A stretch of 64,000 bases of DNA from the NCBI RefSeq assembly GCF_019334315.1, contig NZ_JAHWGL010000001.1, positions 1 to 64,000 on the forward strand. The letters run 5' to 3'. Below are positions 11,623-14,250 of the stretch, piece after piece. The first letter of the stretch is position 1. Each line of letters opens with the position of its first letter. A model generated the notes under the pieces. The model made no database searches. It saw only the letters and a program-made list of their open reading frames with translations, and had not been told where the DNA came from. A program made the translations under genes and the position numbers. The DNA is from Hymenobacter profundi (lineage in GTDB: Bacteria > Bacteroidota > Bacteroidia > Cytophagales > Hymenobacteraceae).

Positions 11623-12114
11623 TTACAGCGCCGTGCCGGGTTTCAGGCGGTGCCAATAGTGGGAGCGGCCCAGCAGCGAAAAACCGATATAGCCCTTCAC
11701 CTCCAGCCGGTCGCGCGACTCCATGTGCAGGTAGCAGGAATAGTAGTGGCCGCTGTGCGGATCGTAGATTTCGCCGTCTTCCCAGCGGCCCGAGTCGGGG
11801 TTATAGCGCATTTTGTACAGCACCACCAAGTTTTGAAGCGGACGGGTGCGCAGCGTGGGGTTGGGGTTGCGCCCATCGAGGTGGGGCTGGCCGGTTTTGG
11901 GGTCAATGGCGTGATGCATCCAAATCAGGCGGCCCGTCAGCTCACCGTCGCGCACGCTCACTTCCACGCGGGCCTCCCCCGAGTCGTCTTCCCACATCCC
12001 CACCGGCGACAGTGCCTGCGCCTGACCCATCAGTGGTAGCAACATGCCCAGGCAGAGCAGCCAGATAGAAAACATAGGAACGGCACTGGCAATGGGGCGG
12101 GGAAGGATGGGCAT
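11623..12114 (-). CDS. DUF2147 family secreted protein (copy 1)
   Basis: A 163-residue exported protein. The core follows the DUF2147 pattern: SPVGMWEDDSGEARVEV at the start, a conserved 'DPKTGQPHLDGRNPNPTLRTRPL' segment, WEDGEIYDPHSGHYYSCYL in the middle and MEVKGYIGFSLLGRSHYWHR-like ending (here RLEVKGYIGFSLLGRS). The start is ambiguous: ATG 12114 gives a short Arg-bearing leader, while ATG 12075 gives a signal peptide MFSIWLLCLGMLL directly. DUF2147 proteins are periplasmic, calycin-like beta barrels; function unknown, sometimes linked to lipid or stress. A second copy lies just upstream on the same strand (12246-12689), evidently a tandem duplication. Confidence 0.88.
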   Translation of the reverse strand: MPILPRPIASAVPMFSIWLLCLGMLLPLMGQAQALSPVGMWEDDSGEARVEVSVRDGELTGRLIWMHHAIDPKTGQPHLDGRNPNPTLRTRPLQNLVVLYKMRYNPDSGRWEDGEIYDPHSGHYYSCYLHMESRDRLEVKGYIGFSLLGRSHYWHRLKPGTAL

Positions 12115-12245
12115 AGGCGCAGGGAAACAAACTGGTTACGTAAGAAAAGAGAGTGTAGCTACGCCAGGGCGGTAACCGGTTGAATATAAGCAAAAACAGC
12201 GGCGTTCCGCTGGAAACGCCGCTGCCTGCTAAATAAGTTCGTCGG

Positions 12246-12689
12246 TTACTTCACCCGCGTCCAGGTCTGGGAGCGGCCAATCAGCGAAAAGCCGATGTAG
12301 CCCTTCACTTCCATGGTATTTGCGTTCAGCATTTTGATGTAGCAGGAATACGTTTTGCCGCTTTCGGGGTCGTAGATTTTGCCATCGTCCCACTTATTAT
12401 CGGAGTCGTACTCAAAGCCCTGCATGAACACCATGCCCAGGCGGGGGCGGCTACGCAGCTTAGGGTCGGGGTTTACAGTATCGGTTTTGGGCTTGCCGGT
12501 TTTAGGGTCGTTGGGTACGGTCAACGACACAATTTTGCCGCATAGCTTATTGCCATCGCACTTGTAAATTTCAAACGTGGCCTTTTTCTCGGAGTTTGTC
12601 CATATGCCCAATGGCGAGAGGCTTTGGGCCGTAGCAAGCGTAGTGAAACCCAGCAGCATTGCCAGGCAGAGAAACAACATCTTTTTCAT
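12246..12689 (-). CDS. DUF2147 family secreted protein (copy 2)
   Basis: A 147-residue protein starting MKKMLFLCLAMLLGF, a clean signal peptide ending TLATAQ; the 44 extra codons of the open frame upstream (to 12821) are not signal-like and were dropped. The mature part aligns along its length with the neighbour at 11623: SPLGIWTNSEKKATFEIY, DPKTGKPKTDTVNPDPKLRSRP, WDDGKIYDPESGKTYSCYI, MEVKGYIGFSLIGRSQTW. It has two extra cysteines (CDGNKLC) typical of the family. The two genes are 131 bases apart, same strand. Role unknown; probably envelope-localised. Confidence 0.9.
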   Translation of the reverse strand: MKKMLFLCLAMLLGFTTLATAQSLSPLGIWTNSEKKATFEIYKCDGNKLCGKIVSLTVPNDPKTGKPKTDTVNPDPKLRSRPRLGMVFMQGFEYDSDNKWDDGKIYDPESGKTYSCYIKMLNANTMEVKGYIGFSLIGRSQTWTRVK

Positions 12690-12916
12690 GGTGATAATAG
12701 AGAGTGGTGGGTTCGGGGAAAAAAGATAGAGGAAAACCATGAAACGATCAAAGCAATTGAGTGCAAACAGACCGCGCCAGAGTACCATGCTTAGGATGCA
12801 AACATAACGCCAGCTTACCAATCAGACGATAGCAAAAAGAAAGACATCTTTTTTCTGAAAAAAACGTGCTGATGCTCAGGGCAGTAGCTTCAGGGGGTAA
12901 AATAGTAGGGTTTTTA

Positions 12917-12947
12917 TTTTGAACCATCCGGTGGGCTTTTAACTTTA
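12917..12947 (+). promoter_or_regulatory. Bacteroidota-type promoter for the structured RNA
   Basis: TTTTG at 12917-12921, an 18-base spacer, then TAACTTTA at 12940-12947. This resembles the Bacteroidota primary-sigma consensus (TTTG about 19-21 bases before TAnnTTTG), with the last base off. Transcription would begin near 12953, just before the first hairpin of the RNA. Confidence 0.5.
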
Positions 12948-13045
12948 CAGACCAGTAGCGAGTGCTACAGCCCTGTTCAAGCAGCCCTAAGGTGCTGGGC
13001 CGCGCGAACAACGGTTATGTCGAACGTAAAGAAAGGAGGTACAAA

Positions 13046-13117
13046 ATGTCTAGTAGTCCCAACCAAATCCTGCCGAGCCTGTCGAATGTAGTCCGCATCA
13101 CCGCCGGACGCGCGTAA
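13046..13117 (+). CDS. 23-codon mini-ORF with perfect Shine-Dalgarno
   Basis: ATG at 13046 opens a 23-codon frame ending TAA at 13115 (product MSSSPNQILPSLSNVVRITA plus three residues). It is preceded by AGAAAGGAGGT at 13030-13040, an 11-base match to the complement of the usual bacterial 16S rRNA 3' end. Most genes in this window have no such motif, as is known for Bacteroidota, so this one stands out. The ORF lies inside the long-range helix of the candidate RNA. It may be a leader peptide, a small protein, or a ribosome-binding decoy; coding is not proven. Confidence 0.35.
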   Translation: MSSSPNQILPSLSNVVRITAGRA

Positions 13118-13243
13118 TAACAGCTTTTCGCGCGGAGCACTTGTTAGCCCAGCAGGGCGTGCTCCCGCATTCTGGCAAGGTCTTATCTCACGGATGGCGG
13201 GGCTGTACCCCAGACCCGTCGCTTGGTAAGATTTGAAGGATTA

Positions 13244-13309
13244 GATGCCCGGTATTGCCCAGCAGCCTTTCAGTAGGCCTGCACAGGCAGTACCGGGCAT
13301 CGCTTTTTT
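13244..13309 (+). terminator. Intrinsic terminator of the structured RNA
   Basis: Arms GATGCCCGGTA (13244-13254) and TACCGGGCATC (13291-13301) are perfectly complementary, enclose a second small stem (CAGCAGCC.../AGGC), and are followed by GC and six T residues. Confidence 0.75.
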
Positions 13310-13371
13310 AGAATGGTGAAGTTGAGAGTTTGTGGGGTAGAGAAGTGTACTTGAGTTTGTATAATAAGAAG

Positions 13372-13482
13372 GCGTCTGTCATCCTGAGCTTGCGAAGGAC
13401 CTTATCACGGCAGAACGACAAGCGTAACAACGACTCGTTCTTGGGGCATAAGGTCCTTCACTGCGTTCAGGATGATAGACGC
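13372..13482. repeat. REP-like imperfect palindrome
   Basis: The left arm GCGTCTGTCATCCTGAGC... (13372-13405) pairs imperfectly with a right arm ending ...CAGGATGATAGACGC (13448-13482). Centre AACGACAAGCGTAACAACGA resembles the centre of the 5329 element, and GTCATCCTGAGC is shared with it. It lies between the candidate RNA and the NlpC gene. Confidence 0.75.
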
Positions 13483-13522
13483 TTGCCTATTCACAACTTC
13501 ACCATCTCATACCTTCACTATT

Positions 13523-14086
13523 CTAAAGCACCCGCCGCACTTGCATGAAGCGGCGCTCGTAGCCGGAGCCTTCTACCTGGCTGACTTTTACGCCGGACTC
13601 ACGGCGGGCCGAGGAGGAATGAATGAAACGCAACGGCTCGCCGGGCTCCGAGAGCACAATGCCCGCGTGGCCGGGCGTGGTGGAAGTAGCAGCCGTACCC
13701 GTAAACACCACAATATCGCCGGGGCGGGCCTGGCTACGCTCCACGGGCCGGCCCACGCTGATGAGCTGCGCGGTGGAGTGCGGTACGCTGATATCGAACT
13801 GCTTGAATACGTAGTACACGAAGCCTGAGCAGTCGAAACCGCCCGCGGGCGTGGTGCCGGCGTAGCAGTAGCGCGTGCCCAACTGCTGCTCGGCAAAGCG
13901 GATGATGGCCTCAGCCCGGTCGCTCATTACGGGGGTAGGGGCGCGGGGCGTGCGGTGCACAACGGCTACCACCGGCACGGCTTGGGTAGGCGCCACGCGA
14001 GCAGAAGGAGCTGCCGGGCGTGGCCAGAGAAACACGGCCAGTAGCACGGCTACCAAACTCAGAAAGGTTATCCAGACGTAGCGCAT
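13523..14086 (-). CDS. NlpC/P60 (C40) cell-wall peptidase
   Basis: A 187-residue protein with an N-terminal membrane anchor or signal (MRYVWITFLSLVAVLLAVFLW) and a C-terminal NlpC/P60 domain of about 115 residues. The cysteine-peptidase triad is visible: nucleophile Cys in GGFDCSGFVYYVF, His in TPGHAGIVL, and a third polar His in LRFIHSSS. Such enzymes hydrolyse D-glutamyl-meso-diaminopimelate or related peptide bonds in peptidoglycan outside the cytoplasmic membrane. A longer frame begins at 14119, but the ATG at 14086 places the hydrophobic segment at the N-terminus. Single-gene unit; divergent from the M61 gene with a 164-base gap. Confidence 0.93.
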   Translation of the reverse strand: MRYVWITFLSLVAVLLAVFLWPRPAAPSARVAPTQAVPVVAVVHRTPRAPTPVMSDRAEAIIRFAEQQLGTRYCYAGTTPAGGFDCSGFVYYVFKQFDISVPHSTAQLISVGRPVERSQARPGDIVVFTGTAATSTTPGHAGIVLSEPGEPLRFIHSSSARRESGVKVSQVEGSGYERRFMQVRRVL

Positions 14087-14250
14087 AAGAGGGTAGGGAA
14101 GTAAGCAGCCTAACGGCAACCAGCGGGTAGGGGTTCCGACGGGGTAGGCGCGGACGAGTAGGTAGGCTCAAAAATCGGCTGTACTTTGCAACCCCGGCTG
14201 CCTTTTGGGGTCGGGTGTACTCCTGCTTTTCTACTTATTATTTTTTGTTC

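Follow-up and report, generated by a model that had tools for sequence, protein, structure and literature searches.

The element described here is a structured RNA of about 355 nt, encoded on the plus strand of the Hymenobacter profundi genome at positions 12953–13309 of a 64,000-nt window (the whole stretch of DNA analysed: positions 1–64,000 of contig NZ_JAHWGL010000001.1, assembly GCF_019334315.1). Two features carry our reading of it: (i) an extended Shine-Dalgarno (SD) sequence followed by a short open reading frame (ORF), and (ii) a long-range helix, H5, in which a strand near the 3' end of the RNA pairs with the ORF itself. Judged from its sequence, the best reading, to which we give an even chance, is that it is a regulatory RNA, with ribosomes acting as the gate at its short ORF. 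A first-pass annotation of the window had described a free-standing RNA of unknown class in a gene-free stretch. The RNA does have its own promoter and terminator and no Rfam match, but a 23-codon ORF preceded by a strong SD lies inside the stretch, which can therefore not be called gene-free, and the central feature, an extended SD with an ORF of 20–23 codons, had been missed. With an extended SD and a frame-conserved ORF inside it, the molecule probably combines the natures of a messenger RNA (mRNA) and a structured RNA.

The eleven bases of the SD are perfectly complementary to ACCUCCUUUCU, which stands at the 3' end of 16S ribosomal RNA (rRNA), with a pairing energy of −18.4 kcal/mol. Since no 16S tail was found in the genome's own assembly, tails were taken from six rRNA copies in two genomes of the genus. 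Across a wider set of 40 loci the pairing lies between −17.5 and −19.7 kcal/mol in every case, below the −13 kcal/mol that sets extended-SD mRNAs apart. In the H. profundi genome, AAAGGAGGT precedes an ATG no more often than a reversed control does (seven places against six), and two of the seven are the RNA itself.

The frame that follows is strictly kept. In all 101 distinct sequences compared (96 of the genus, the window's included, and five of the sister genus g26), the ORF consists of 23 codons plus a stop; left out of this set were L135, L039, L162, loci lacking the exact core pattern, run-offs at contig ends and identical stretches. Within the 40 loci the ORF is always 20–23 codons long, starts with ATG or GTG and has the N-terminus MS[SN](S)P, while over the same span the +1 frame is open in three loci and the +2 frame in none. 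Among 37 distinct Hymenobacter and g26 ORFs, variant codons are synonymous in 18 cases, non-synonymous in 17 and never a stop; none of 2000 column permutations gave so few replacements plus stops, and five gave as many synonymous variants. For codons 13–23 alone, 0 of 500 permutations were as extreme. Same-residue codon pairs differ in 4.6% of comparisons in codons 4–12 and in 30.5% in codons 13–23, the contrast that a constraint by H5 on the earlier codons would produce. The encoded peptide, of 20–23 amino acids, is not bS21, whose gene rpsU is located elsewhere in the genome; it had no match in Pfam (one peptide searched), in NCBIfam (six peptides) or among PDB sequences.

H5 joins codons 3–11 to a strand immediately upstream of the terminator. 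Its pairing was assessed at 20 of the 40 loci, hand-picked for spread over nine genera or families, and in all 20 the best duplex is similarly placed. When strands were exchanged between loci, cognate pairs averaged −21.6 kcal/mol and non-cognate pairs −14.6 kcal/mol, a difference reached in none of 20,000 permutations, nor in any for a subset of 11 loci. This result supersedes an earlier one (11 of 20,000 permutations), for which the rule defining the 3' strand had mis-assigned L233, L251 and L253, two of which were among the loci tested. H5 does not disrupt the terminator stem.

A strand from the 3' end that pairs with the coding region recalls hok mRNA, whose 3' end folds back in the same way, and a hok-like type I toxin mRNA, silenced by its own 3' end, would have this layout. 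We nevertheless consider a toxin improbable: the RNA occupies a single locus with conserved neighbours in each sampled genome of the family, rather than being mobile, and no membrane helix is evident by eye in the peptide. Its core pattern is also without an exact match in viral contigs, on which count a mobile origin was rejected.

Two further features were noted in this region. By eye, GGUCUUA near 13179–13185 could pair with UAAGAUUU of the H5 3' strand in Hymenobacter, making it a candidate alternative partner. At 13236–13252, AAGGATTAGATGCCCGG resembles GGATTAGATACCC, which we take to be a conserved 16S stretch; this likeness may be chance.

The remainder of the RNA is also structured (Table 1). 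Its fold is better than all of 100 dinucleotide shuffles (z = −5.39). Eight helices, picked by eye, were tested on an alignment of 32 sequences: 94.0% of cells are paired, against 87.8% after shuffling and 32–47% when the helices are slid; 20 pairs carry changes on both sides, a number equalled in one of 500 shuffles; and the covariation score is 0.202, against 0.101 for shuffles, none of 500 scoring as high. Comparison across relatives thus supports the structured RNA that the first-pass annotation had proposed. The window's own copy of H2 pairs imperfectly. Within the ORF, codon 16 pairs through its wobble base with the middle base of codon 21, and this pair is Watson-Crick in 101 of 101 sequences (A-U in 46, C-G in 45, U-A in 10); the alternation of residue 21 between G, V and E keeps hairpin Horf paired.

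A different long-range helix, of 9 bp, had been drawn between 13000–13008 and 13127–13135. It is present in the letters, inside repeat I1, but is not conserved: in 32 relatives 56.8% of its cells are paired, against 56.6% after shuffling, and its covariation equals that of shuffles. We therefore rejected it; a helix that does have support shares bases with its 5' arm.

Table 1. Positions of the features discussed, in window coordinates.
Feature	Position	Strand	Details
Possible operator, palindrome CTGATGCTCAG	12869–12879		Strand not assigned; 37 bases before the −33 element
Promoter	12917–12948	+	TTTTGAACC at 12917–12925 (−33 type); TTAACTTTAC at 12939–12948 (−7 type)
H1, 5' hairpin GUAGC-GAGU-GCUAC	12955–12968	+	Fully paired (100% of cells, 32 sequences); 2 of 5 pairs double-changed
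H2, stem-loop around conserved CCCUAA	12971–13014	+	83.4% of cells paired; 6 of 7 pairs double-changed
Extended SD AGAAAGGAGGU	13030–13040	+	11 bp with the 16S rRNA 3' tail
23-codon ORF MSSSPNQILPSLSNVVRITAGRA	13046–13117	+	Starts five bases after the SD
H5 5' strand UAGUCC, CAAAUC, UGCCGAGC	13054–13078	+	Inside ORF, codons 3–11
Horf, hairpin in 3' half of ORF	13091–13109	+	Codon 16/codon 21 base pair
H3, hairpin 3' of stop codon	13132–13168	+	84.1% of cells paired; 6 of 8 pairs double-changed
H4, hairpin	13199–13217	+	88.5% of cells paired; 1 of 6 pairs double-changed, 3 one-sided
H5 3' strand GCUUGGUA-A-GAUUUG-AA-GGAUUA	13221–13243	+	Just before terminator; pairs with 13054–13078
Intrinsic terminator	13244–13309	+	Stem 13244–13259/13286–13301; T tail 13304–13309

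The position of H5 suggests how the RNA might work. The helix starts about nine bases into the ORF and overlaps the footprint of an initiating ribosome, so that SD engagement and a closed H5 should exclude each other; from this mutual exclusion of ribosome loading and H5 we infer a ribosome-gated switch. Supposing that the RNA is transcribed and its ORF translated, the SD would best be loaded by ribosomes that expose their anti-SD, which in Bacteroidia are the bS21-free ones. Translation would open H5 and free the 3' strand, and the empty RNA would close again. The output of such a switch could lie in (i) the freed 3' strand, (ii) the stability of the RNA, or (iii) the peptide.

The link to bS21 comes from the part of PMC9976891 that we drew on. 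It describes Bacteroidia ribosomes in which the anti-SD is hidden in a pocket formed with bS21, and the translation of rpsU through an extended SD by ribosomes lacking that protein; ribosomes without bS21 or its C-terminus were studied there in Flavobacterium johnsoniae. SDs below −13 kcal/mol mark rpsU in this account, weaker ones standing at rpsR (which it also counts among the SD genes in Cytophagales) and at certain further ribosomal genes, and extended-SD rpsU is placed in about 20% of Cytophagales, mainly Cyclobacteriaceae (PMC9976891, same part). Applying the Hymenobacter 16S tail to every rpsU comparison, we found an rpsU SD below −13 kcal/mol in 0 of 18 RNA-bearing genomes read (range 0.2 to −11.6) and in 2 of 17 genomes with no match to R1, a covariance model of the promoter-to-codon-8 part of the RNA, SD included; both of the latter belong to f19 (−18.8 and −18.9). 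These counts are too few to claim that the presence of the RNA is complementary to that of the rpsU SD.

With this background the RNA can be given a more specific, and more doubtful, role. It might be a dedicated sensor or titrator of exposed-anti-SD ribosomes, on which bS21-free 30S subunits would dock, open H5 and switch on a regulatory strand or peptide; it would then be the trans-acting counterpart, in Cytophagales without an extended-SD rpsU, of the rpsU autoregulation seen elsewhere in Bacteroidota. We put this forward tentatively, as a possibility with the balance tilted against it. If true, bS21-free specialised ribosomes would gain a second client, this time outside the ribosomal proteins, and ribosome state would have a regulator open to direct testing.

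Several observations weigh against a ribosome-gated regulator, in its general or its specific form. Firstly, an extended SD is likewise missing from rpsU in 15 of the 17 genomes without an R1 match, so the counts do not establish that the RNA replaces rpsU control. Secondly, the invariance of the SD arises partly by construction, because the pattern behind the 101-sequence set and model R1 both contain it; the 37 genomes of the genus were gathered by BLAST, not by an SD-containing pattern. Thirdly, six H5 pairs are invariant within alignment A1 and uninformative on their own, and L135, a distant member, has an unremarkable free fold (z = −1.38), its minimum-energy structure lacking H5. Finally, codon-level selection is not clear in every group: as many synonymous differences arose in 512 of 1000 permutations of the 22-codon ORFs of genus g24 (11 distinct), and values as high in 122 of 1000 for its 23-codon ORFs (five distinct) and 473 of 1000 for the f5/f17 ORFs (four distinct), so the peptide may be incidental there. 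The permutation tests, moreover, take no account of phylogeny. As far as codon comparisons reach, the maintained short frame is general, and it is only for Hymenobacter together with g26 that they demonstrate selection on the peptide.

The same observations bear on a simpler explanation, in which the RNA is an mRNA that encodes a conserved micropeptide and has structure in its untranslated regions, and the SD and H5 merely set the level of expression. The strong SD, the conserved frame, the third-position bias in Hymenobacter and g26, and the use of ATG or GTG starts in different genera would all fit such an mRNA. The peptide sequence, however, drifts among genera, with no clear selection in g24 or f5/f17, and residue 21 tracks base pairing. 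We see a micropeptide mRNA as a possible explanation, though not a probable one.

Whichever role it plays, the RNA belongs to a family that is absent from Rfam 15 and shows strong covariation: a new structured RNA family in which the ORF itself forms half of a long-range helix. At the gathering threshold, Rfam 15 yielded no match across the whole 64-kb window, nor in any of 10 loci of relatives, which represent seven of the genera or families. In a permissive scan the terminator hairpin drew two microRNA matches, both below threshold (E = 0.069 and 3), and atpB was matched outside the RNA (E = 2.1). The combination of a structured RNA and an internal short ORF raises the question of a divergent transfer-messenger RNA (tmRNA) or another ribosome-rescue RNA, which we think very improbable indeed: a full tmRNA (RF00023, 120.7 bits) lies on another contig of the genome, the RNA locus has no Rfam match, to RF00023 or otherwise, and the ORF begins with an SD and ATG in an RNA that ends in a terminator hairpin. 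6S RNA was likewise rejected, the full-library scan giving no match in the window; RF00013 finds none genome-wide, and RF01685 (6S-flavo) was covered by the window scan. A literature search on Hymenobacter or Pontibacter small RNAs returned nothing relevant; it covered subscription papers poorly, and 'unpublished' is accordingly unproven.

By its sequence and distribution, the RNA gene is autonomous: every sampled genome of the family has it at a single locus, as do a few genomes elsewhere in the order. By BLAST with 381 bases, all 37 genomes of the genus (H. profundi included) contain it, as does one of 22 genomes of other families, the latter matched by the short core only. A core-pattern search of named genomes returned 82 stretches, 81 from Hymenobacter and one from a Cytophagales metagenome-assembled genome. 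With a mismatch-tolerant pattern, 123 of 200 family genomes matched; nine matches fell outside the genus, of which five (g26, L070–L074) are the RNA and four are other sites. Of 390 genomes from the order, 87 have the RNA according to model R1: all 79 of the same family (six genera) and eight of 311 others (family f5, 6 of 8; f17, 1 of 1; f20, 1 of 10; none in the remaining groups). Absence by R1 is provisional, because it means no match of a 5'-domain model under strict filters. Each genome with the RNA gave one match, except H. profundi itself, which gave two owing to the contig fold-back described below. Other SD-pattern sites (a second one in G018 and those in G103, G148, G174 and G423; stretches L075–L078 and L161) were rejected, reaching at most 19.9 bits with R1 (E = 0.019) and lacking the promoter and H1 by eye; in G083 the RNA was found by R1 elsewhere than the SD-pattern match.

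The gene's own signals are well kept. The promoter, TTTTGAACC/TTAACTTTAC, of the Bacteroidota type as in the first-pass annotation, is conserved among relatives: in 29 sequences GAACC never varies, TTTT and TAACTTTA hardly vary over much of their length, and variant forms occur in other genera of the family. The intrinsic terminator recognised in the same annotation also holds, with stem arms that are 94% complementary, followed by GC and six T; in 32 sequences its nine counted pairs are 100% paired, three with double changes. A simple scanner, which tests only a sigma-70 consensus and loops of 3–8 nt, listed neither signal. Upstream, a CTGANNNTCAG-like palindrome occurs in most of the Hymenobacter sequences inspected and in g26, and was not seen in the other genera inspected; from its sequence and place it may be an operator.

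The RNA is flanked by a DUF2147 gene upstream (12246–12689, minus strand, read away from the RNA) and an NlpC/P60 gene downstream (13523–14092, minus strand, convergent with it). Two DUF2147 genes in fact stand side by side at 11623–12689 on the minus strand, the nearer one divergent from the RNA; across the family, it is usually a member of this nearer gene's cluster that lies upstream of the RNA. Among 82 Hymenobacter loci, some of which stop too early to reveal their neighbours, an ORF of the DUF2147 cluster, or one antisense to such an ORF, lies upstream in 79, the NlpC/P60 cluster downstream in 65, and both in 62. In the wider 40 loci, DUF2147 accompanies 29 and NlpC/P60 26, with neither in f5, f17 or f20; g24 has an extra gene between the RNA and NlpC/P60. 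The order of elements, with structures and a terminator after a short ORF, could also be what is left of a leader or attenuator that formerly controlled a downstream gene. This, too, is unlikely: NlpC/P60 lies on the strand opposite to the RNA in 70 of 70 cluster members, and the terminator stem is untouched by H5.

Two observations concern the surrounding DNA. Just 3' of the terminator, at 13373–13483, lies an inverted repeat resembling repetitive extragenic palindromes, TCATCCTGAGC...AAGGACCTT; with up to one mismatch, TCATCCTGAGC occurs eight times in the window (1.03 expected). In addition, the 191-kb contig is an inverted repeat, of which 113193–191192 is part, its last 64 kb being the reverse complement of the window with 20 mismatches, all within 13413–13440; the stretch between the arms of the palindrome-like repeat is where the two contig ends differ. 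The contig is probably a fold-back assembly artefact, which accounts for the apparent second copy of the RNA in this genome and may perhaps also explain the 5% contamination estimate.

Several known systems share parts of this design. The dual-function RNAs RNAIII/hld and SgrS/SgrT are structured, have their own promoters and terminators and contain a short ORF, and RNAIII has long-range pairing. By comparison only, the RNA resembles them in its own promoter and terminator, its structure and its short conserved ORF, and RNAIII also in its long-range pairing, and differs in having no Rfam match and in carrying an SD within a group that does not normally use SDs. With hok mRNA it shares a 3' end folded back on the ORF (H5); unlike hok mRNA, it is a single-locus gene of the whole sampled family. 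A parallel in translation is the rpsU (bS21) mRNA of Bacteroidia, as portrayed in the consulted part of PMC9976891, with an extended SD of equal strength (−18.8 and −18.9 for rpsU in f19, −17.5 to −19.7 here); unlike that mRNA, the RNA is free-standing, encodes a peptide of 20–23 amino acids and places a long-range helix on its ORF. Finally, the downstream-peptide/yfr6 RNA is, in the section of PMC2864571 available to us, likewise a structured RNA with a short conserved ORF, marked by synonymous changes and by indels in threes; set against that section, the RNA described here has no Rfam match and pairs its ORF with its own 3' end.
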